Assembly (NCBI RefSeq): GCF_004099695.1
Contig: NZ_SCHL01000013.1
Location: 1 to 64,000 of the forward strand
Length of the DNA: 64,000 nucleotides
DNA from: Methanosarcina sp. MSH10X1
GTDB taxonomy: Archaea; Halobacteriota; Methanosarcinia; Methanosarcinales; Methanosarcinaceae
Direction of reading: 5' to 3'
In this document: positions 1,391 to 31,002 of the stretch, one piece after another
Position numbering within the stretch: position 1 is the stretch's first letter
Layout of the letters: every line of letters begins with the position of its first letter
Notes under the pieces: model-generated
Told to the model about the DNA's origin: nothing
The model's database searches: none
The model's input: only the letters and a program-made list of their open reading frames with translations
Position numbers and translations under genes: made by a program

Positions 1391-1440
1391 AAATAAATCT
1401 GGCCATGCACATGGGATACAGGGCCAGAAATTTATTTTTT
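1391..1440 (+). terminator. Hairpin plus T-run after the aminotransferase
   Basis: TCTGGCC at 1398-1404 pairs perfectly with GGCCAGA at 1422-1428; AAATAAA before and TTTATTT after extend the stem past a two-base bulge, and the 3' side ends in TTTATTTTTT. It lies 25 bases after the stop codon and fits an intrinsic-type terminator. Confidence 0.6.
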
Positions 1441-1501
1441 ATCAAGAATATCCCATATTCTTAAATTTTATTCCTGATAACCTCTAACAGGCTTTAACCA
1501 T

Positions 1502-1520
1502 CTTCTAAAGGCCTTAGAAG
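1502..1520. repeat. Short perfect inverted repeat between convergent genes
   Basis: CTTCTAA and TTAGAAG (7 bases each) flank a five-base AGGCC loop. It sits between two convergent genes, 13 bases past the stop of the minus-strand DUF2148 gene. It could assist 3'-end formation, but there is no clear T-run. Confidence 0.35.
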
Positions 1521-1532
1521 CCTTTAACACTC

Positions 1533-2111
1533 TCATTTTCTATCAAAAAAGATATTCTTCCCGGTTACGCTCAGCGGAATTCCGAAAACGACATGTGCAT
1601 CCTGCATGAATGATACCCTTGCGGCTGCGCCAATTGAATACATAACCCTGTTGTCGATACAGAAATCTTTGGCTTTTGCAGCGGCTGCGCCTATAGCGAT
1701 TCCAAGGTCTACATGTTTGAGCATGCAGTTTGGGCCTCTGAATTCAACTTCTACTTTTTGTCGGTCCAGCATCTCGGCACAGGTTTTAAACCCGCAGGCT
1801 CCGCAGTCCAGCCCTGCAGCCCCGCTGGTTTTAACCCCTATAAGAATTACAGCCCCTGCATTTCGAAGATTTGCAGCGTCTCTTTTCAGAAAAGCGAAGC
1901 CTGGCCCTTTTTCATCCGCCAGCCTTTCCATTGTCGAGGCAAGCGTTTCAATATCCTGTTTTTCAACAAGGGCAGTTACTATATCATCTACTCCTTTGGC
2001 TTTCGGGGCAGTCCTTGCAGCCAGAAGGATGCTCTTTGCAAGTTCTTCAAGCACTTCTGATTCAGGATTGAGGATCATGCTCAGGTATTGGAACTGTCCG
2101 GGCTTAAGCAT
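1533..2111 (-). CDS. DUF2148 ferredoxin-domain protein
   Basis: 192 residues of unknown precise function. The centre carries the DUF2148 hallmark LDCGACGFKTCAEML, a compact cysteine motif, with two further cysteines downstream (PNCMLKHVD and KDFCIDN); the family is thought to bind an iron-sulfur cluster. It lies 31 bases downstream of the beta-CASP nuclease gene on the same strand and is probably cotranscribed with it. Neither ATG 2111 nor the internal ATG at 2078 has a good Shine-Dalgarno sequence; the longer form is given. Domain assignment is firm from the motif; the role is unknown. Confidence 0.8.
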   Translation of the reverse strand: MLKPGQFQYLSMILNPESEVLEELAKSILLAARTAPKAKGVDDIVTALVEKQDIETLASTMERLADEKGPGFAFLKRDAANLRNAGAVILIGVKTSGAAGLDCGACGFKTCAEMLDRQKVEVEFRGPNCMLKHVDLGIAIGAAAAKAKDFCIDNRVMYSIGAAARVSFMQDAHVVFGIPLSVTGKNIFFDRK

Positions 2112-2142
2112 TTCGCAACTTTTTAACGGCGATTTTCCTCAC

Positions 2143-3384
2143 TTAAAAGCTAAATGTATGCCCGTTTGCAGGCGCATATGCATCCACGCCAATCTCTTCC
2201 AGAATCCATTCCGCAAAAGCTTCGGTTTTGTCCCCATGCATTACAAAAACTCTCTCAGTGCCTTTTCTGCAAAAATCCTTCACAACCTGTTTGAGCTCGC
2301 TATCTCCGCTATGGGCGGAAAAATCATACTTCTCCACCCTGGGCTTCAGGGTAAGGATATCTCCTCTGGTCTCGACAAATCCATGTTCAAGCGCCAGTCT
2401 TCCGTTCGTGCCTTCAACCTGGTAGCCTGTAAGCAGGACTTTCGATTTTGGGTCTTTGTAAAGCCGGCTCAGGTAATACAGTACAGGCCCGCCGTTTAGC
2501 ATCCCTGCTGTGGTAACAATGACTGAGGGTTCTTTAAGCACCGAATCCCGCTGCTGGTCTTTTACAGGAATAGCCCGCCCGAAAGCCCGGTCAAGCCGCT
2601 CGGGCTCTTTAAGGTATTCAGGGTACTTTTTAAGAATTTTGTACACATCCCTGCCCATGCCGTCCACGTAAGCCCGAATTCCGTGGGCGTCAAGCAGCAT
2701 GAGTATTTCCTGGGTCCTGCCTATCGCAAAAGCGGGGATAAGAGCAGTACCTCCCCGGTCTACAGTATCCAGTACCGATTCTATGAACCTTTCTTCGGTC
2801 TCCTTTCGCGGGATGTGTTCTTCCCCGAAATACGTGCTTTCAAGGACGAGAGTATCGGCTTCGGGAAACCTGGCTGCCCCGGGCACAAGCCTCGTTTCCT
2901 GAAGGCTGAAATCCCCGGTGTAAAACAGGCTCTCTCCTGCTTCGGATTCCAGGAAGATGCCGGACGCTCCGGGGATGTGGCCTGCATCGTAAAAGCAAAT
3001 CCTGTACCTGTGGCTTTTGAAAGGCTTGTTAAAATCTACCTTTTGTGTTCGCCTGGCAAGCTTCTGGAGGTCATCCGGATCAAAAGGGGATACGCCTGAC
3101 AGGGTACTCTCTGCAAGCTTCAGGGTGTCCCTGCCGAGAAGATAAGTAAATTCTGCGGTTGGCGGGGTCATGAAAACATCGGGATTCTGGTACATCAGGT
3201 TGGGCACAGCCCCGCAGTGGTCAAGGTGCCCGTGTGAAACGAGCACAACCTTAGGTTCCATGCCGTTTAGAGGATATTCCGGGATATCTCCTGCCTTTAT
3301 CCCGTAATCCAGCAGAACCTCCCCATTAACAAGAAAACCCGAACGTCCGACTTCCCTGCATCCGCCTTTAAAGGTAAGCTCCAG
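2143..3384 (-). CDS. KH-less archaeal CPSF-like beta-CASP ribonuclease, CTG start
   Basis: Metallo-beta-lactamase/beta-CASP nuclease of the RNA-processing type, 413 residues. The zinc motif is SHGHLDH (residues 50-56); GDFSLQETR, FAIGRTQE, a HSGD segment and the C-terminal VMHGD follow in normal family order. There are no KH domains, so it matches the short archaeal CPSF2-type proteins rather than the termination factor aCPSF1. The first ATG in frame (3261) would cut off the conserved N-terminus: FKGGCREVGRSGF and LLDYGIKAGD lie upstream in the same frame. The frame opens after a TAA, and the only plausible initiator there is CTG at 3384-3382 (an ATT precedes it). GAGGG lies 7 bases before the CTG. 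Expected substrates are RNA 3' ends; the DUF2148 gene follows it. Confidence 0.85.
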   Translation of the reverse strand: MELTFKGGCREVGRSGFLVNGEVLLDYGIKAGDIPEYPLNGMEPKVVLVSHGHLDHCGAVPNLMYQNPDVFMTPPTAEFTYLLGRDTLKLAESTLSGVSPFDPDDLQKLARRTQKVDFNKPFKSHRYRICFYDAGHIPGASGIFLESEAGESLFYTGDFSLQETRLVPGAARFPEADTLVLESTYFGEEHIPRKETEERFIESVLDTVDRGGTALIPAFAIGRTQEILMLLDAHGIRAYVDGMGRDVYKILKKYPEYLKEPERLDRAFGRAIPVKDQQRDSVLKEPSVIVTTAGMLNGGPVLYYLSRLYKDPKSKVLLTGYQVEGTNGRLALEHGFVETRGDILTLKPRVEKYDFSAHSGDSELKQVVKDFCRKGTERVFVMHGDKTEAFAEWILEEIGVDAYAPANGHTFSF

Positions 3385-3658
3385 AATAAAACCCTCTTAA
3401 AATCTATTAAGACTTTACTATAATATCTGATATAATATTTGCTATAATATTTGTTAAATTCTTCTGTGAGCTCAGGCAGTTAGAATTATTCAATGTCAGA
3501 ATGTTATAGTGTTGTTGAAAGATATACTGGCAGGAAACAATTACCAGATTAAAATCTCGAATTTGTAAAGAATCTGCTTAAATCAGTTTCTTTATATTAT
3601 TCTCTTTTCCAGTTTGCATTTTAGATTCTTATATACCACTTGCACATCTTAAGCAATA
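3385..3658. other. AT-rich spacer with repeated TATAATAT motifs
   Basis: The first part (3417-3450) holds three imperfect copies of a CTATAATATTTG-like sequence. On the minus strand these give TATA-box-like sites close before the beta-CASP nuclease gene and probably include its promoter. I see no gene in the rest of the stretch up to the zinc-finger gene promoter. Confidence 0.35.
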
Positions 3659-3671
3659 TTTTTATATAGTA
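3659..3671 (+). promoter_or_regulatory. TATA box suggesting a leaderless transcript
   Basis: TTTTTATATAG is centred about 27 bases before ATG 3692. Archaeal transcription usually starts about 25 bases after the TATA centre, so the message for the small zinc-finger gene would start almost at its ATG. This agrees with the absence of any Shine-Dalgarno sequence. Confidence 0.5.
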
Positions 3672-3691
3672 TCAAAACATAATTTTTTTAC

Positions 3692-3823
3692 ATGGACGCT
3701 TTCTATCCGTGCATGTTTTGTGAAGCAGTATTTGTTGATCTGGGGTATGCAAAAGATCATATGAAGGAATGTCATTCTAAAGACAGGATGATGTGCAATA
3801 TCTGTTCAGATATCTCCGATTGA
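3692..3823 (+). CDS. 43-residue C2H2 zinc-finger protein
   Basis: A very short reading frame of 43 residues. C7-x2-C10-x12-H23-x4-H28 has exactly the spacing of a classical C2H2 finger, with phenylalanine at the usual core position (F14). A further C35-x2-C38 follows and might bind a second metal or pair with C27. Such single-finger proteins are known in archaea as small nucleic-acid or protein binders; no specific function can be given. The start is the only ATG in frame near a good TATA box. The gene stands alone, followed by the repeat-containing spacer. Confidence rests on the motif spacing, since the length alone would not support a gene. Confidence 0.6.
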   Translation: MDAFYPCMFCEAVFVDLGYAKDHMKECHSKDRMMCNICSDISD

Positions 3824-3887
3824 AGAGTAATCACTTATCCTCAGTAATAATAGGTAGATTATTCTGCGTTCTGTGTGACAAAAACGA

Positions 3888-4020
3888 ACAGATAAGACGA
3901 ATAAGTTATGGGTCAGGATTAGATTCGAATTTATAACCTGCTATAAACACAGCTAAAAATAAAAAGCCAGCGTGAGTGAAGACTATCTTCACACATTCTC
4001 AGCTGTAACGTTGTCCTCTA
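3888..4020 (+). repeat. Diverged copy of the topA 3'-flank (copy A)
   Basis: This stretch aligns over about 135 bases with 5551-5698. Shared blocks include CAGATAAG, AATTTATAACC, GGCTATAAA or TGCTATAAA, ACAGC.AAAAATAAAAA, and the run leading to TTGTCCTC or CTGTCCTC. Copy B runs into the last codons of topA, so copy A is a decayed duplicate of the DNA at the end of topA. A 67-codon open frame across copy A has no start signal or family resemblance and is not counted as a gene. Confidence 0.65.
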
Positions 4021-4231
4021 ATATACTACTAAATGAATCCTACCTACTTTTACCTCGAAATGTGGAATCAGCTCAATGCTCAGGACTTTACATTGACAAT
4101 CAGGATCTTGGAAAATCATATCGTTCAATAGAACAAATATATAGATTATTCTGTGACAATTCCTTAGTTGATTGAAAACTCTGTTACCAATTAGTAGACT
4201 GATAATTACATATTACAAAGGGAAATATAAC

Positions 4232-5356
4232 ATGAAGAAAATGTTTCTTTTTTTAATACTACTTTTCATGTTGGCTATAATTTCACGTGCTGGAGCGGTT
4301 ACAATCACAGTAGATGATGATGTTGAGGGAGCAATTTATAAAAGTATACAGAATGCTGTTGACAACGCTACTGATGGCGATACAATTCTTGTATATCCTG
4401 GAAACTATACGGAAAACGTGTATGTTGATAAAGAGTTAAAAATTCTTTCTCTCTCTGGAAATCCGGCTGATACTGTTATTCGTGCTGCTAACTCTGAGAA
4501 TGATGTATTCAGTGTTGTAGCAGATAATGTAACCATTAGCGGTTTTAGCATAACTGGTGCCAGAATAGATCAGTATGGAGATGATAAAGCCGGAATTTAT
4601 TTTGAGGGTGTAAACAACAGTATCATAAAAAATAATAATTTCTCTTCAAACGGTTATGGCATTTCTTTACTTGACTCATACAACAATATACTTGCCGATA
4701 ATAGTGCGTACATGAGTACCATTGGTGGGATTTTCCTTTGGAACTCCAGCAAAAATAAGGTGGATAATAACCTCATAAATGCGATCAAACATCAAGGTAT
4801 ATTTATATACACATTCAGTAATAATAATGAAATAAGCAATAATACTGTCAATTATTCCAGATCTGGAATTGATTTGGTTTATTGTGAAAACAACACAATC
4901 GTAAATAATACCATATCAAACACTTTTTCAGGAATTTTACTTATCGAATCAAACTGCAGTTCTCTGATTAACAACGTTGTAAAATTAAATGACTGGAGTG
5001 GTATAGATCTTGAGTATAGTGCAGAAAACACACTATACAATAATACTGCAAGTTTTAACAATAATAACGGGATATATTTAGTCGAATCGAGTGATAATAG
5101 GTTGGATCACAATAATGCATCAAATAATATGGGATATGGCATAAACATTAATAACTCAAGCAGGAACAATATATTAACTGGTAACATTGCAAATTCAAAT
5201 GGTAAAGAAAATATACATGTTGTTGATCCAGAGAATAATACAATAAACGGTTCAGCAAACAGTCCAGCTCAAGAATTGCCGTTTAGAGGTTTTGTGCTAG
5301 CAATTATTGCAATTACAACTATAGCTTTAATATTTAGAAAAAGAGGATATAAGTAA
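4232..5356 (+). CDS. Secreted, membrane-anchored parallel beta-helix (NosD-like) protein
   Basis: 374 residues. An N-terminal signal peptide (MKKMFLFLILLFMLAIISRA) is followed by a VTITVDDD segment and a SIQNAVDNATDGDTILVYPG motif that opens NosD/pectin-lyase-like right-handed beta-helices. The rest is a series of short coils with N-rich turns (NNIIKNNNF, NNTIVNNT type) typical of carbohydrate-binding or -lyase repeats. A single C-terminal helix with a basic tail (IFRKRGYK) should anchor it to the membrane, leaving the helix outside. Start ATG 4232 was chosen over an upstream frame opening because AAAGGGA lies before it and it begins the signal peptide. It lies between the two diverged repeat copies A and B. 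No catalytic residues were identified. Confidence 0.8.
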   Translation: MKKMFLFLILLFMLAIISRAGAVTITVDDDVEGAIYKSIQNAVDNATDGDTILVYPGNYTENVYVDKELKILSLSGNPADTVIRAANSENDVFSVVADNVTISGFSITGARIDQYGDDKAGIYFEGVNNSIIKNNNFSSNGYGISLLDSYNNILADNSAYMSTIGGIFLWNSSKNKVDNNLINAIKHQGIFIYTFSNNNEISNNTVNYSRSGIDLVYCENNTIVNNTISNTFSGILLIESNCSSLINNVVKLNDWSGIDLEYSAENTLYNNTASFNNNNGIYLVESSDNRLDHNNASNNMGYGININNSSRNNILTGNIANSNGKENIHVVDPENNTINGSANSPAQELPFRGFVLAIIAITTIALIFRKRGYK

Positions 5357-23500: not shown

Positions 23501-23788
23501 TTAAATATGGTGGCTTAAAAAAGCGGTACGCAGGCTGCTTACCTCGATCGTGCCCGGGCTTCCGGGCTCGCCCCTGTCATTTCTCTTCGATTCCCTGTCA
23601 TTTCTCTTCGATTTTTAACAGTTTACCAGGCTTTGACCTCATATTCCCATAGAAAACCCCGAAAATAAAAGTTTATAGAGTTAGTAATCTTTTTAAGCTT
23701 TTTTAATACCGGATGTACTCAGTCTAAAGATTTCCGGCTCTTTCCGATCTTCCTGCTAAGAAAAATTCCTTAACAGTGCTTTTTTCCC

Positions 23789-24730
23789 ATGATAAAGCTC
23801 ATATCCTCACATATCCATACTTACTTGAGAGAGAACCTGGGGGCGCGAAGGATTCTACCGCTCGACGAAAATGAAGCTCTGGAACTGGGGCTTACTCTGG
23901 TTGATGAAAAGAATGAAGCCGACATTAAAGAAGTCCTTAGCTACCTTTCCGAGCTTGCAATGAAATATGCAAAAGAAGGGCAGGAAAGCGACACAAAAAG
24001 ACTGATCGAGTATATTAAAGAGATAGGGAAAGCGGCGGCTATTGCCGGTCTTGAGCCGATAGTTGTCAATACGCTTCTGCTTCTTTCTCCGGTTGCCAGA
24101 GAGGCATGCAGAAATCACATGGCGAATGCTCTAGTGAGCATTGCACTTGCGTTCGGAGAAATCGGGAAAGCCGCAGCAGGACAAAAAATGGAGATTCCCG
24201 CAAAGATTGCAGCTTCCTGCCTTGGCGAGATGGGAAACACTGCAGCTTCCAAAAAAGGCAAAAAGGAAACTATTGCAATCATTTTCGCTCTTGGCGAAAT
24301 CGGAAAAAGCGTTACATGGCAGAGGTTAGGGGATGTCGCAAGCAGCACAGTAGCCCTTCTCGGAGAAACCGGAAAGGTCGCGGCAAGTCAGAAATTTGAG
24401 GACGCAGCGTTAAATGCCGAGCTATTGCTTCAGGAAATCGGAGCCGGAGCTATTGAGAAAGACCTGAGCGAAACTGTGGATATAAGTGTACGTTTTATCC
24501 GGGATATAGGAAAAACCGCAGACAGGCAGGGGCTTGATAGGGCTTTACTCCAGGCAGCTTATTCGCTTGAAACGATTAAATTCAATGCCGAGGATCGCTA
24601 CCTGATGAGCGCGTCTATAATAGCGGAAGTGGCTCTCCTGCAATTTGAAAAACTGGAAATTCAAAGACTGGAAGATAAACTGAATAGGATTTCCAGGGGA
24701 AAGAGGAGATCGCCAGGTACAGGGTTATGA
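23789..24730 (+). CDS. 23-residue-repeat alpha-solenoid protein, paralogue 1
   Basis: 313 residues, soluble, family not recognised. From about residue 51 to 280 it is ten consecutive repeats of exactly 23 residues without a gap, consensus G-E-I-G-K-x-A-A-x-Q-K-x-E-x3-x-A-x4-L. Examples are GEIGKAAAGQKMEIPAKI, GEMGNTAASKKGKKETI and GETGKVAASQKFEDAAL. Each unit would form two short helices, so the whole should be a rod or solenoid. A conserved head (LDENEALELGLTLVDEKNEAD) precedes the repeats and is shared by the three other copies nearby. The first twelve residues before this head are not conserved, so translation may start later. HEAT-like annotation would be misleading, as HEAT units are about 37-47 residues. 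Confidence 0.8.
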   Translation: MIKLISSHIHTYLRENLGARRILPLDENEALELGLTLVDEKNEADIKEVLSYLSELAMKYAKEGQESDTKRLIEYIKEIGKAAAIAGLEPIVVNTLLLLSPVAREACRNHMANALVSIALAFGEIGKAAAGQKMEIPAKIAASCLGEMGNTAASKKGKKETIAIIFALGEIGKSVTWQRLGDVASSTVALLGETGKVAASQKFEDAALNAELLLQEIGAGAIEKDLSETVDISVRFIRDIGKTADRQGLDRALLQAAYSLETIKFNAEDRYLMSASIIAEVALLQFEKLEIQRLEDKLNRISRGKRRSPGTGL

Positions 24731-24904
24731 ACTTTTCCACTCAGGTTAGTTTGTATTGTTGTTAAGTTAATCACTCAGTATCAGTTAAAATCACCAGGTA
24801 TTGAATCGAGATACCTGCCTTCCTTACAGGGGAAGAAGTGAAGGAAGAATTATCTGGCTTTAAGGTACCTTTCCCGAAATAAGAATTTTAGTGGGGTGTT
24901 CTGA

Positions 24905-25741
24905 ACGTCTATTTTAAACGAATCTGGGGCAACGGACCTCGGGCTGACTTCAGTTAAGGATAATGACGAACTTGGTGTGCTACGATCCATAGATTTCCTT
25001 ACGGAACGCGGAACCGAGTATATAAATAAGAAACTTGAGCCTGATGCGAAAAAGGCTGTCATCAGCATAAGGGATATAGGTAATGCGGCTGTTTTCCAGA
25101 AAATGGAAATTGGGGTTTTTTTATCGCTCTTTTCGCTTGGAAAGATGGCTGAAATCGCAAGAGAGCAGAAAATGACCGACACCGGCTTGAGCATCCTCTA
25201 CTCTCTGTGTGCGATCGGGAAAGCGGCAGTCGGGCAGAATATGGAGTCAGCGGTCAGGATTGCAGTTGGGTACCTTGGAGAAATTGCAAACTCCGCATCG
25301 CTTCAGAAAACTGAGAGAGAAGCTCTGGCTGCGGCTCTTGCCATAGGGTCCATAGGAAAAGAAACTTTCGGGCAGCAAAGCATCCATGTTCCGGAGAACG
25401 GAGGTTTTCTTCCTCCTAAGTCATATGTCCTCTTATCTCACCCTTACGGAAAAGAGGCAGTTATCCTTTCCGGAGAATTTCCGGGTATTTTAAGTTTGTT
25501 TATTCAGCAAGCAGGAGAAGCAGATCTCTCTCAGCATACTCCTGCCCTTTCCGATAATGAATCCTCTTACACGGATTTCAGTGACTTTGAAAATATAATC
25601 ATGAAAGCTGCCAACTCCCTGGGAACAATGATTTTCGAAGTCAAAGAAAGGTTTCTAATAAGCCATATGCTTATGACGAAACTTGCCCTTGACACTCTCA
25701 ATGGTTCGGAATATATACACGAAGCCGAATCTCTCGACTGA
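24905..25741 (+). CDS. 23-residue-repeat protein, paralogue 2, with ACG in place of the start codon
   Basis: 278 residues when read from ACG 24905. The head SILNESGATDLGLTSVKDND aligns with the heads of paralogues 1, 3 and 4, so the true start must be there, but the codon at the Met position is ACG; GGGGTG stands 6 bases before it. Otherwise translation would begin at GTG 24977, inside the head. At least five exact 23-residue units follow (RDIGNAAVFQKMEIGVF, GKMAEIAREQKMTDTG, CAIGKAAVGQNMESAV, GEIANSASLQKTEREAL types). They are then interrupted by about 70 unrelated residues (from IHVPENGGFLPPKS to SYTDFSDFE) before a final unit. Either a divergent family member with a non-AUG start or a gene in decay. 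Confidence 0.65.
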   Translation, partial: TSILNESGATDLGLTSVKDNDELGVLRSIDFLTERGTEYINKKLEPDAKKAVISIRDIGNAAVFQKMEIGVFLSLFSLGKMAEIAREQKMTDTGLSILYSLCAIGKAAVGQNMESAVRIAVGYLGEIANSASLQKTEREALAAALAIGSIGKETFGQQSIHVPENGGFLPPKSYVLLSHPYGKEAVILSGEFPGILSLFIQQAGEADLSQHTPALSDNESSYTDFSDFENIIMKAANSLGTMIFEVKERFLISHMLMTKLALDTLNGSEYIHEAESLD

Positions 25742-26219
25742 AAACTTCGAGAGGGCTGAATTGCCTCTCTTCCGAATAGTTCCGATCTGATTTTCAGTCC
25801 GGGAAATCTCCGGATTTCAGGATAGGCTGTTAAACTCAGAGCTCCGGATAAGTAAACTGTCAATTCTCGCACTGGCAGCCCTGACCTGCTTCAATGCATA
25901 ATCTAATAAAAGCATGCCAGGTAAAAGCTGCAAATTATAAAGCTGGGAACCGCTGGAAATGGTTTAATAAAGGTTTTTACTATTTTTGAATTTTAGCTGA
26001 TTATATAGTATAGATGACTGCATTTACAGAGCACTGGAAACAATGCTAATTCTAGCTAGCCCTAAAAATAATAAGATCATATGAAATTTAAGGTTTATTT
26101 TTCAGAATATGTATTTCAAAATGATTTTATTATCCCAAATTATTATTCTTACGCGTTGTTATAAAAGCAGGATTTATTCTTTGTCGGAATATCCTTATTA
26201 ATTAGGGGGCTAGTGGTTA
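25742..26219. other. Spacer upstream of the beta-helix/thioredoxin gene
   Basis: About 480 bases with no gene. TATA-like runs near 26000 and 26155 could serve the downstream gene. No repeat stands out. Confidence 0.3.
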
Positions 26220-27722
26220 ATGAAAGGGAATTTAGTTCAGATTATTATTATAATCTTCCTTTTTATGCTTGGGACAGCCGTAACCCAGGCCGATGCTGTG
26301 GTTATTACAGTAAACAACAGCGAGGAAGGAGACTATGCTTCGATTCAGGAAGCCGTCAATAATGCACAGAATGGCGATACTATTCTTGTAAGCCCTGGAG
26401 TATACAGAGAGAATATAATAGTGGATAAGGAACTCACAATTCTCTCAAGTTCCACTCTCTCGGGTCTGCCGACTAATCGTACCTATGTAATAGGTGCAGT
26501 ACCTGACAATGCTGTCTTCAGCATCAGTTCTGGCAACGTAACAATAGACGGCTTTCATATTGCAGGAGATCCTTCCGGAAAGGATATGTACGGGAATGCC
26601 GGGCTTTACCTTGAGAATGTCCGGAACTGTTCATTAGGCAATAATACGCTGATACTCAATGATCTGGGCATTGTGCTCAAGAATTCCCGGGGCAACTATC
26701 TTAAAGGAAACCTTGTAAGTTCTGGGAACAGGGGAATTACGCTTGACAATTCTGAGGATAATATACTATCAAACAATCTGGTAGTAAGAAATAGCCAGGG
26801 AGTTTTATTGAGTAATTCCGTTAATAATACCCTTGTTAACAATACCGCAGGTTCCAACGAAATCGGCGTTTTCCTGCTAACGTCTCAGGGGAACAGGCTT
26901 GCTAATAACCTTATTTTGAAAAACGAATATGGAATCCGTGGGCAGACGGCAGGGTCAAACGTTTTGATCAGTAACAACCTGTACCTTAATGATATTGGAG
27001 TGCACCTTAACGATTCTTCTAACAATTCATTCTCTGAGAATGAATTTATTAATCTGGTCAATGCCGTAGACGGAGGAAGGAATCTCTGGAACAGCAGCCT
27101 GGCAGGTAACTTCTGGGATAGCCATACAGGAGCAGATGCTGACGGAAACGGTATAATAGATACTCCCTATGCCATAAACCGGACGGCAGGAGCTACGGAT
27201 TATATGCCTCTGGTAAACAGGCTCTCCTCAGGCAAAGGTTCCCAAACTCTGAGTATTAACTGTAATGCCTTATTGAACCTGTTTAATAAAAAATACCCTC
27301 CGAACACTCCCAGTACTCGGGAAAAAAATGTTGTTGTCGAGACGACCGAGCTTGAGCAGATAAACGCATCCCTTGAGGAAGGCCCGGTTTTTTTGAGGCT
27401 CGGAGCTGAATGGTGCGGAGCCTGCCAATCCATGGGACCTATACTTGACGAACTGGCAGTCAGGTACGGGGAAAAAGCAACAATTATGTCCATAAATATA
27501 AACCAGAACGTCCAGCTTGCAACCTATTTTGAGGTAGGCTACATCCCTGATTCCTCCGTAATTATGGGCATTGAGAATGGGAAATACGTTTACATGCAGC
27601 AGGATGGGAATATTACCACAGATAGAGCTCAAGCAAGGATTGTTGGGCTTGAAGATAAAAGCGTCTTTGAAAAAGTTTTGGAACATGCCATAGCCTACGA
27701 AGAAAGAGTCAAATCCGGTTGA
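26220..27722 (+). CDS. Secreted beta-helix (NosD-like) protein fused to a thioredoxin domain
   Basis: 500 residues. A signal peptide (about residues 1-27) leads into a right-handed parallel beta-helix opened by SIQEAVNNAQNGDTILVSPG, with repeated N-rich coils (NLVSSGNRGITLDNSEDN type) to about residue 290, then a DADGNGIIDTPY calcium-loop-like end cap. From about residue 375 a complete thioredoxin domain follows: W398-C399-G400-A401-C402 active site in LGAEWCGACQSM, the IMSININQN strand and the GYIPDSSVIMG cis-proline region. The whole should lie outside the membrane, putting a dithiol/disulfide enzyme on a surface scaffold. It sits on the same strand between paralogues 2 and 3 of the 23-residue-repeat family, after an AGGGGG ribosome site. 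Confidence 0.88.
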   Translation: MKGNLVQIIIIIFLFMLGTAVTQADAVVITVNNSEEGDYASIQEAVNNAQNGDTILVSPGVYRENIIVDKELTILSSSTLSGLPTNRTYVIGAVPDNAVFSISSGNVTIDGFHIAGDPSGKDMYGNAGLYLENVRNCSLGNNTLILNDLGIVLKNSRGNYLKGNLVSSGNRGITLDNSEDNILSNNLVVRNSQGVLLSNSVNNTLVNNTAGSNEIGVFLLTSQGNRLANNLILKNEYGIRGQTAGSNVLISNNLYLNDIGVHLNDSSNNSFSENEFINLVNAVDGGRNLWNSSLAGNFWDSHTGADADGNGIIDTPYAINRTAGATDYMPLVNRLSSGKGSQTLSINCNALLNLFNKKYPPNTPSTREKNVVVETTELEQINASLEEGPVFLRLGAEWCGACQSMGPILDELAVRYGEKATIMSININQNVQLATYFEVGYIPDSSVIMGIENGKYVYMQQDGNITTDRAQARIVGLEDKSVFEKVLEHAIAYEERVKSG

Positions 27723-28002
27723 GGGAAACCTTTGACCGGTAGGCTTGACCCTGACTCGGCTTCATAATGCCTCAGAATAAAAGGATAAGATTCTTTTTAA
27801 ATGAGACGTCCTGGTTACAAAACAGTAACACTAATAATCCCGTAACTTCATAGAGTAAGCGCGACTCTACTTCCTGTGCGAGCTATACTTCAGGTAACAA
27901 ACTGACGTCAGGTGTGAATTAAATGCACAGGCAATGATTAAAAGATCTATAAGAAAAAACTGAGACTAGATGTATTAATATCACTAAAGAGGGGCAAAAA
28001 GG

Positions 28003-28887
28003 ATGATTACATTAAACGAAGCCGAGGCCGTTGAAGTAAGTTTATCTGCAATTGACGAAGGAGATGAGAGAAGAGTTTTCGAGGCTCTGGATTCCCTTAC
28101 AGGGATTGCGGCAGATTTCCTTTCTGAAAACGAAGAAGCAGATGCCAGGAGAGTTATTCTATCCATTGAAAATGCAGCACAGGTGGCTGCAGAAAGATAT
28201 ATGGAGCTTGTTACCATCAATTCTATCCTGTCTCTCGGGAAGCTGGCAAGGGTAGCAGCAGATAAAGGATTTGAATACGCCCTGAACAGGACCTTTATAG
28301 CAATAGGTAAAGTGGGAGAGACTGCAGCTACACATTTACTTGGAGCAGGTTCGAAGGTCGCTGCTACAACCCTTACGGAGATCTGGAAATTCTCTTCAGA
28401 ATCATGGGATCAGGAGAAAGTAATTGCCTTTTCTTTGCTCTTTAAAGAGATAGGAGCCTCTGCTGCCAGAAAAGATATGGAGGAAGTCGTGCTCAGTGCA
28501 GTTACAGGTCTGGGAGAAATCGGGAAAAATGTTGCAGCAAGAAGCCTTGAGATTGAGACTGTCAGCACCCTGCTTTTGCTTGAGGAAATCGGCAAGCTTG
28601 CGGCGGAAAGTTACTTCGACGAAGCCCTGAGTTCAACAGCACTTTCCATAGAAGAAATAGGAAAACTATCTATCAAGAAAGGACTTGGTGACGCGGTTTT
28701 GCAGTGCCAGTGGGCGCTTGAGTCCCTCCGTATTCAGGCTGAGGAGAAGCTCCTGAATAACTCTTCAGTAGTGGCGGAACTGGCTCTGGATAATTTCATA
28801 GATGCAGGTTATACGGATTCTGAGGAAAAAGTGGAAAAATTCCAGGAAATAAAAGCCCTTCAGAAAGAAATCCAGTCTGCCCTGTAA
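28003..28887 (+). CDS. 23-residue-repeat alpha-solenoid protein, paralogue 3
   Basis: 294 residues. Head ITLNEAEAVEVSLSAIDEGD, then ten gapless repeats of exactly 23 residues from about residue 41, for example GKLARVAADKGFEYALNR, GEIGKNVAARSLEIETV and EEIGKLAAESYFDEAL. It ends with ESLRIQAEEKLLNNSSVVAE, equivalent to the last unit of paralogue 1 (ETIKFNAEDRYLMSASIIAE). It is the cleanest member of the family. GAGGGG lies before the ATG. Function unknown. Confidence 0.85.
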   Translation: MITLNEAEAVEVSLSAIDEGDERRVFEALDSLTGIAADFLSENEEADARRVILSIENAAQVAAERYMELVTINSILSLGKLARVAADKGFEYALNRTFIAIGKVGETAATHLLGAGSKVAATTLTEIWKFSSESWDQEKVIAFSLLFKEIGASAARKDMEEVVLSAVTGLGEIGKNVAARSLEIETVSTLLLLEEIGKLAAESYFDEALSSTALSIEEIGKLSIKKGLGDAVLQCQWALESLRIQAEEKLLNNSSVVAELALDNFIDAGYTDSEEKVEKFQEIKALQKEIQSAL

Positions 28888-29103
28888 ACCCATACCAGGA
28901 AGGTTATGTGTCCACTTCTCTGTACATAAGCCCCTTATATAACCAATTCTCAACATAATAGCTCCCACGTAACCAGAATCCTTATATAATCGGGCTCTTC
29001 ATTTTTATCCACAGTCCGGACTTATCCGGACTTTATAAGTTTCTATTTAACTTTTAATTAACATATTCTCTTTTTTCTATTTTTGCTTGATTTTTGAATC
29101 TTA

Positions 29104-29232
29104 TCGAAAAATGGGACAAATAATCTCCTGGATGTTCCTGAAACTTACAAGCAATTTCTAGATGGAGGTAAAATTTTGCTTTTAGCAGAAACTCTTCCTC
29201 CCGAGTACGGGTATCACGTGGCTCAGGCATGA
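29104..29232 (+). pseudogene. Short coding-like remnant
   Basis: One frame reads NLLDVPETYKQFLDGGKILL, then LAETLPPEYGYHVAQA and a stop, preceded by a stop and lacking any start codon. It looks like the C-terminus of a lost gene; family unknown. Confidence 0.25.
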
Positions 29233-29296
29233 TAAAAGACTAACTTCTTAAGAAATAATTAAGTCAGGTTAACCAGATATCAGGATTGCCGGCTTA

Positions 29297-29414
29297 TTTT
29301 CGGATATAATTCCAGATATAATTTCGGATAAGATTTCGGATATAATTTCGAATATGGTTTCGGATATGATTTCGGATAAGATTTCGGATATGATTTCGAA
29401 TATGATTTCCGTAT
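29297..29414. repeat. 12-base tandem repeat ATTTCGGATATA
   Basis: About ten imperfect copies of a 12-base unit, varying at the last four positions (ATAA, TATG, ATAT). The period is a multiple of three, so opposite-strand reading gives a KSYP-type peptide repeat, but without gene signals. Located in a 1.27-kb spacer. Confidence 0.75.
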
Positions 29415-29559
29415 GAGAAGTACTTTAAAAAAGCAGTTTCGGCAGAAACTGCAAAAAACGCCCGAATACTTTTTGAAAATTACTTGCTTACTTGAAACCA
29501 TAAGTTTTAAATAAATTACTGAAGTATTTCTTTAAGGCAAAGCATCGTTCTACCAGTAA

Positions 29560-29737
29560 AAAACTTGAGGTTTCGAAGTGAAGTAATTAGATTTACCATT
29601 TGTATTTTACTGTGCATAGTATTCAACACAGTTGTTCAGGTAGGAGGAAGGTAAGGAGTTGAACCCTCCCCCCTACCATGGAGTTTTGTCTCTCTCATGC
29701 AGGAGAATATGCCAGAAAACCTGCATGAGTTTTTTTA
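29560..29737 (+). ncRNA. Candidate small RNA ending in a hairpin and T-run
   Basis: Two hairpins follow one another. The first has GGTAGG (29639-29644) against CCTACC (29672-29677), with purine-rich and C-rich inner strands. The second is a perfect 8-base stem CATGCAGG (29696-29703) with CCTGCATG (29720-29727), followed by a run of seven T. A TATA-like TTTTAAATAAATT lies near 29505. No coding frame covers this DNA, and the next gene starts over 400 bases later. The 5' end is a guess. Confidence 0.4.
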
Positions 29738-30159
29738 CTCATATGATATATATTATGCATGAAATGTATATAACTCTTTCTATTTAGTTAGTATGTGGGC
29801 TTTTCGGGTTGGTTTCTCTTCCGTATTTAGCAAAAAAAGTAACTGAAGTTTATGAGTAAATCCGGACTATTTTCTGCATTGCTATTTTTTATTCTAGCAA
29901 TTTTTTAAAATTTTTACTTTTACAGCCTTTTAATTTATCTAATCTATTTTCTCAGTTTATCCGTTAATTGATAAAGTTATCAAGGATCTTCTGTTTATTG
30001 ACAGGGGTTTTAAAAAGCTTTTTTTGGAATAATAGCCCTGAAATTCCCGATATACTTTTAAAATATAGGAAGCCTAATATCCGAGTAAACCTATATAAAT
30101 AATTAAATTCTTAAAATCCGAGCAATTTCTAAAGGATTTTACTGGAAAGGGGTTTTAAT

Positions 30160-30912
30160 ATGTTCTCACTGAATGAACAAAAAGCTATCGAACTTGGAGA
30201 AAACGGAGAGCGAGCATTAAGAGAACAGAATGAATACGATGCGCTCCAATATGTTGACTACCTCCGGGAACTCGGAGAAGAACTGCTTGAGGCAGATTTA
30301 GAGGCGGACCTAAGAAGGGTCGTTATTTCGCTCCGGAATATTGGCAACAAAGCCATCCAGAAAAAGATTGAGGGTATTGCGTCAATGGTCCTTAACGACC
30401 TTAAATCTCTTTCTGAAACTGCTCTCAGCAAAGATTTCTCAAACGCTATGTGGTCTTTTTCAAAAGCTGTACAGGAGATTGGAAAAGGAGCAGTACAGTT
30501 CCAGATGCTTGAACCTGCAAAAACTGCGCTCGATACTCTTAAGATGATAGGGCTGGGAGCTGTTGAGAAGAAGATGGAAGTCGTAACCCTGTGGACAACC
30601 CTTGCTATCGGGGAAATGGCTTATCTTGCAAACCGGCAGCAACTTGAAGATTTAAGTAAGGCAGCAGTAGATGCCAGAGAAGAAATTATAGAAGCTTCAG
30701 AATTATCTGGCTTCAAGACAAGAGATGAAATTGAAATATACCCTCAGCTTATTGCGCAGACTGTAAGTCAATATTCAGAGCTCCAGGATCTACAGCCTGC
30801 AGGCTATGAGGCAAAACCCAATGAAGAATTCACAGAAGAGGAATTCTTTGAGGATGAAGGAGATATTGGAGAACAGGAATCCCAAACTGAGGGTGCCAAA
30901 AAAGAAGAATAA
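30160..30912 (+). CDS. 23-residue-repeat protein, paralogue 4, with acidic tail
   Basis: 250 residues. Head FSLNEQKAIELGENGERAL, then six units of 23 residues (RELGEELLEADLEADLRR, RNIGNKAIQKKIEGIA, QEIGKGAVQFQMLEPAK, KMIGLGAVEKKMEVVT and others) and a C-terminal acidic, low-complexity tail (NEEFTEEEFFEDEGDIGEQE). It stops right after a run of six A (30898-30903). In the next frame the DNA goes on as four NEPEAQEI-type repeats, so a one-base slip in the A-run would add about 45 residues. GGAAAGGGG lies before the ATG. Confidence 0.8.
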   Translation: MFSLNEQKAIELGENGERALREQNEYDALQYVDYLRELGEELLEADLEADLRRVVISLRNIGNKAIQKKIEGIASMVLNDLKSLSETALSKDFSNAMWSFSKAVQEIGKGAVQFQMLEPAKTALDTLKMIGLGAVEKKMEVVTLWTTLAIGEMAYLANRQQLEDLSKAAVDAREEIIEASELSGFKTRDEIEIYPQLIAQTVSQYSELQDLQPAGYEAKPNEEFTEEEFFEDEGDIGEQESQTEGAKKEE

Positions 30913-30913
30913 T

Positions 30914-31002
30914 CCTGAAGCTCAGGAAATAAATGAGCCCGAGGCTCAGGAAACAAATGAGCCTGAGGCTCAGGAAATAAATGAGCCCGAGGCTCAGGAA
31001 AT
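30914..31002 (+). repeat. 24-base tandem repeat encoding NEPEAQEI
   Basis: 3.7 copies of a 24-base unit (CCCGAGGCTCAGGAAATAAATGAG type) with only third-position-like differences in the frame that reads E-P-E-A-Q-E-I/T-N. It starts directly after the stop codon of paralogue 4 and looks like the out-of-frame end of that gene. Confidence 0.75.

Follow-up and report, generated by a model that had tools for sequence, protein, structure and literature searches.

The window, a 64,000-nucleotide stretch of Methanosarcina DNA, carries a cluster of four genes, P1 to P4, whose products contain tandem units of 23 residues (Table 1). Two tandem repeats are present in the DNA around P4. One is an array of about nine copies of the 12-base unit TTTCGGATATAA at 29298–29409, between P3 and P4, and the other a 24-base repeat, GCTCAGGAAATAAATGAGCCCGAG, in 3.5 copies at 30920–31002, just 3' of P4, which in another frame would read as EINEPEAQ repeats.

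Table 1. Features of the repeat-protein cluster, with positions in the window
Feature	Position	Strand	Evidence
P1 leader, conserved at the nucleotide level (AAAGCTMATATCCTCACATATCCATA...CTGGGGGCATGAAGG), with short upstream ORF MIKLISSHIHTYLRENLGA	23786..23851	+	Alignment
P1, solenoid protein (predicted) of 292 aa; 11 gapless 23-residue units	23852..24730	+	Unit profile; start-codon alignment; dN/dS 0.12–0.15
P2, 278 aa; six units of 23 residues with an irregular stretch after them; ACG start	24905..25741	+	Unit profile; start-codon comparison; dN/dS
Secreted protein, NosD-type beta-helix and thioredoxin; outside the repeat family	26220..27722	+	Pfam; gene-order comparison
P3, 294 aa; 11 units in register	28003..28887	+	Autocorrelation; unit profile; AF2 model
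Gap, site of a fifth paralogue (P5) in relatives; erased in the window	28888..30159	+	Comparison with relatives
P4, 250 aa; six to seven units, then a conserved acidic C-terminal tail	30160..30912	+	Autocorrelation; unit profile

The boundaries of P1 and P2 depend on unusual start codons. Of 24 distinct P1 sequences from Methanosarcina and a sister genus (L016–L099), 23 have ATT at the aligned start, and the remaining one has ATC directly 3' of a GTG. This ATT aligns with the ATG of P3 and P4 within the motif M-x-x-L-[ND]-E, and a GGGG(G) site lies 7–8 nucleotides upstream of it, about the spacing seen to the ATG in P3 and P4. In most species a TGA interrupts the frame two or three codons upstream of the ATT, and in two species (L046 and L049) no ATG, GTG, or TTG is found in frame from the upstream stop to P1 codon 59. 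Codons 2–36 of P1 are under purifying selection. In the window itself, the start of P1 is most likely ATT 23852 and not ATG 23789, because the extra 21 residues correspond to the leader and that frame is broken by a stop in most relatives. In the window and three relatives the TGA has become CGA, which joins the upstream ORF to P1 in one frame, and the gene could thereby gain a canonical ATG. The stop of the upstream ORF adjoins the P1 start in one clade. A conserved upstream peptide as the general function of the leader was rejected, since the ATG of the ORF is missing in one clade, and no conserved RNA structure was found in the leader, column-shuffled alignments folding about equally well.

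P2 appears to begin at ACG 24905, 24 codons upstream of the first GTG, which the ORF finder had taken. Eight genomes, that of the window and those of seven relatives in its clade, have ACG here; in other species the position holds ATG or GTG in most and ATA in one. The possibility that P2, lacking an ATG, is a pseudogene was rejected on the basis of a dN/dS of about 0.1 and a conserved frame. A survey of 36 bacterial and archaeal genome groups recorded a change to AUU at only 1 of 61,358 ancestral AUG starts (PMC5622118). Archaeal aIF1 has been reported to counter non-AUG initiation (PMC6237735), so the conserved AUU could, we propose, limit the synthesis of P1.

The period of the repeat is exact. 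In each of the four proteins the autocorrelation of BLOSUM62 self-similarity shows sharp peaks at a lag of 23 and at multiples of 23, with no peak at 22 or 24. The lag-23 value of P1 and of P3 was reached by none of 500 shuffles, each maximised over all lags; that of P2 was reached by 11 of 500 and that of P4 by 1 of 500, and for these two proteins the lag-46 values exceeded those of all 500 shuffles. An iterated 23-column unit profile located 155 units in 18 related proteins, in which 117 of 137 spacings were exactly 23. An earlier note on this DNA, made by reading the sequence, had claimed an exact 23-residue unit, and both analyses bear it out. The positions it gave for the four ORFs were likewise confirmed, apart from the starts of P1 and P2. 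Its consensus (G-E-I-G-K-x-A-A-x-Q-K-x-E-x-x-x-x-A-x-x-x-x-L) is close to that of the profile, GEIGKKAAEQKLEDATLEAAISL, and its unit counts (ten in P1 and P3, six in P4, at least five in P2) were correct to within one unit, with 9 of the 11 positions in P3 scoring above the profile threshold. The head motif it had described as common to the four paralogues is likewise present, as M-x-x-L-[ND]-E-x-x-A. All four genes are under purifying selection (dN/dS 0.08–0.20).

A structural model of P3 was calculated with AF2 from an alignment with 30 homologues, yielding a pLDDT of 94.4 and a pTM of 0.91, values to be read with the tendency of AlphaFold to over-regularise repeat proteins in mind. DSSP assigns thirteen helices to the model. 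Ten helices begin at positions 22, 45, 68, 91, 114, 137, 160, 183, 206, and 229, exactly 23 apart, and are 20–21 residues long (22–41, 45–64, 68–88 ... 229–248) with intervening turns of two to three residues. In the model, the P3 unit is a single helix of about 20 residues followed by a three-residue turn, and the predicted stack of 12–13 regular helices places the protein in the alpha-solenoid class, which is defined by stacked tandem helical units. Because each 23-residue unit contributes one helix, a helical hairpin comprises two units and has a period of 46. Of the two-helix superhelix that had been anticipated, the regular solenoid is thus retained in the model and the assignment of two helices to each unit is not. 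Alternating unit types, as expected of a two-helix unit, were also rejected, for adjacent units resemble each other as much as next-but-one units do and the parity signal is not significant, with a trend in P2 and P4 (p about 0.09). The two layers of the solenoid are thus not clearly specialised in sequence.

Among the matches listed in a Foldseek comparison of the model with the PDB, the best come mostly from de novo design and comprise helical repeat proteins, filaments, and toroids (E 3.4e-5 to 1e-3), and natural TPR, 14-3-3, and SNAP folds rank later with low TM scores. The local TM score normalised to the target is 0.77–0.80 for 6e9x and 8fin, and the query-normalised score is at most 0.56 among the 50 PDB matches listed. 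The resemblance to the designs, such as DHR54 (5cwl), the DHF filaments, and the circular tandem repeat 7rdr, lies in the length and regularity of the helices and in the very short turns between them. Such designs have two different helices per unit, whereas in the P1–P4 family one helix sequence would serve both layers; the designs are not homologous to it. TPR, Sel1, and SNAP solenoids share the arrangement of antiparallel helix hairpins in a superhelix, but the Foldseek matches are weak (TM about 0.2–0.4), and their units comprise 34–36 residues in two shorter helices. Viral structures gave just weak matches of this TPR/Sel1/SNAP kind.

With respect to catalogued families, Pfam, NCBIfam, and PADLOC gave no convincing match for P1–P4, the anti-phage defence models of PADLOC included, and none of the PDB sequence families covers the four proteins. 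The earlier claim that none of the helical repeats it listed (HEAT, ARM, TPR, PUF, mTERF) has a 23-residue period is supported. TPR is excluded by the lack of a Pfam match in P1–P4 and by a period of 23 instead of 34. The leucine-rich repeat variant, named in the note as the nearest and built of alternating alpha and 3-10 helices, has a unit of nearly equal length (24 residues) and matches in Pfam neither any of the proteins nor an idealised unit consensus. The best PDB sequence-profile match of the family, LIC11098 (E 6e-4), is presumably a Leptospira leucine-rich repeat protein whose period is also 23; a relationship was rejected, and the match is read as a chance agreement of period and composition.

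The only catalogued repeat family that comes near to accommodating the units is HEAT_PBS (PF03130). It is matched by the idealised consensus at 33.7 bits (cut-off 20.9), through the motif A..LGEIG, and by L062, a relative with a DUF2254 domain, at 35.7 bits, and alphaRep proteins appear as weak profile matches in the PDB sequence search. On this evidence P1–P4 could be divergent PBS-lyase-type HEAT repeats, cut to 23 residues and folded as ordinary two-helix units, and descent of both from a HEAT_PBS-like ancestor, a remote common origin, is possible. We nevertheless regard this explanation as unlikely. P1–P4 themselves do not match HEAT_PBS at E<=10 in Pfam, and the likeness consists of the local motif and a helical solenoid. 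HEAT_PBS and alphaRep units contain two helices in 27–31 residues, with the A..LGEIG motif at the end of a helix, whereas the units of P1–P4 measure 23 residues and in the P3 model consist of one helix each, with LGEIG in its middle. Literature searches turned up no paper describing a helical repeat of 23 residues or a repeat made of one helix. P1–P4 constitute a real and apparently uncatalogued family of archaeal repeat proteins, a variant of the alpha-solenoid whose predicted architecture is clean.

The family is not confined to the cluster. Two further full-length paralogues are encoded elsewhere in the genome, on contigs C11 and C55, which brings the total to six members, and an order-wide search found a family match in 118 of 186 genomes. 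Congeners and the closest sister genera encode full-length soluble paralogues, usually six to eight per near-complete genome. In a tree of 67 proteins these form seven clades (P1, P2, P3, P4, P5, C11, and C55), each with members from Methanosarcina and from a sister genus, which indicates that the duplications are older than the genus. The local expansion proposed in the earlier note is therefore not supported. The gene order P1-P2-P3-(P5)-P4, on one strand, is kept in most of the genomes looked at, with P4 apart from the cluster in at least one (G178). P5 has 310 residues in the sister genus and about 204 in several Methanosarcina, and is reduced to remnants in others. Only close relatives of the window carry the gene for the NosD/thioredoxin protein between P2 and P3, and other genomes have the cluster without it, which argues against the common role with the secreted thioredoxin fusion that had been suggested. 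Beyond the cluster itself, no conserved gene neighbour was found across genomes, nor was a constant partner gene found next to the dispersed paralogues in the genomes compared, and plasmids and viral contigs contained no relatives. At L117:253-1332 and 1408-4237 the C55 paralogue is divergent to an ECF-type transporter operon, an arrangement that G080 and G156 share at least partly and that G154 and G177 lack.

Outside Methanosarcina and its sister genera, the family profile finds proteins in which a DUF2254 membrane domain at the N-terminus is followed by a tail made of 23-residue units, with E-values for the tails down to 7e-39 and matches in several families of the phylum. In most of these tails the autocorrelation is strongest at lag 23, and they share the consensus of the P1–P4 units; profile, period, and consensus together establish homology between P1–P4 and this unnamed tail repeat. 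The Pfam entry for the domain, PF10011, covers just the N-terminal part of the tail-bearing relatives and not the repeat, and it has no match in P1–P4, which carry the same units as these archaeal members without the membrane domain. In the literature consulted, DUF2254 figures solely as a family predicted to be knotted (PMC11184937). Given the common repeat, the soluble family probably arose by separation of a tail from its membrane part, or the reverse took place.

The relationship also raises the possibility that soluble P1–P4 act as detached tails, competing with or capping the cytosolic tail that DUF2254 membrane proteins carry. The genome of the window also encodes a 903-aa DUF2254 protein (L114:1129-3840) in which degenerate 23-residue units were seen by eye. 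Such a function is decidedly unlikely, however, as the soluble family occurs in all congeners, DUF2254 is matched in three of the five Methanosarcina genomes listed (that of the window included) and at threshold in neither of the other two, and the soluble genes are not linked to DUF2254 genes in the genome. A comparison of the neighbours of DUF2254 proteins across genomes yielded no constant gene.

The reading we prefer, with a probability of roughly 0.6, is that P1–P4 are part of an old family of soluble alpha-solenoids, with seven members and a single-helix repeat, in Methanosarcina and its sister genera, that they serve as protein-binding scaffolds, and that the output of P1 is limited by its AUU. 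In the predicted structure, consecutive 23-residue units run antiparallel, and the stacking of about 12 units produces a rod of two layers, both of which would be built of sequence-equivalent units. The motif L-G-E-I-G-K-x-A-A, mid-helix in each unit, would probably provide small Gly/Ala contacts for close packing. Protein binding, the most frequent role of such solenoids, is established for TPR and HEAT, and the family searches with P1–P4 recognised no catalytic, transmembrane, or secretion domain. By analogy, P1–P4 are most likely protein-binding scaffolds, rigid and cytosolic, which would hold their partners by patches of conserved surface residues. Among the positions of P3 presumed to be exposed, as deduced from the repeat pattern, conservation is highest in units 2 and 9 (Y204, D206, E207, S210, S211, and others), making these units candidate binding sites. 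The paralogues may have diverged in their choice of partner, and the conserved cluster together with the old paralogy suggests that the members cooperate and are non-redundant. P1 would probably be produced at a limited rate, as its translation seems to begin at an AUU behind a GGGGG site.

Assembly of the paralogues end to end, as subunits of a mixed filament or ring, would be in keeping with the conserved gene order on one strand and with the designed filaments and toroids among the top structural matches, but is distinctly improbable, since those matches reflect only helical-repeat geometry, the C-terminal caps and tails differ among paralogues, and the lineage of the window has lost P5 while keeping the others.

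Descriptions of helical solenoids found in nature usually have them composed of two- or three-helix units. We give even odds to the broader proposition that the soluble proteins of Methanosarcina and the DUF2254 tails define a natural class of solenoid, in which a single 23-residue helix is equivalent in both layers, with one AUU-started member behind a conserved leader. If this is true, a one-helix unit serving both layers would make about the simplest kind of solenoid, and nature would have in this family its own equivalent of designed helical repeat proteins, of use in the design of binders. The 23-residue repeat offers an entry point to the cytosolic tail found in DUF2254 proteins, and the conserved AUU start of P1 provides a ready test of non-canonical initiation in archaea.
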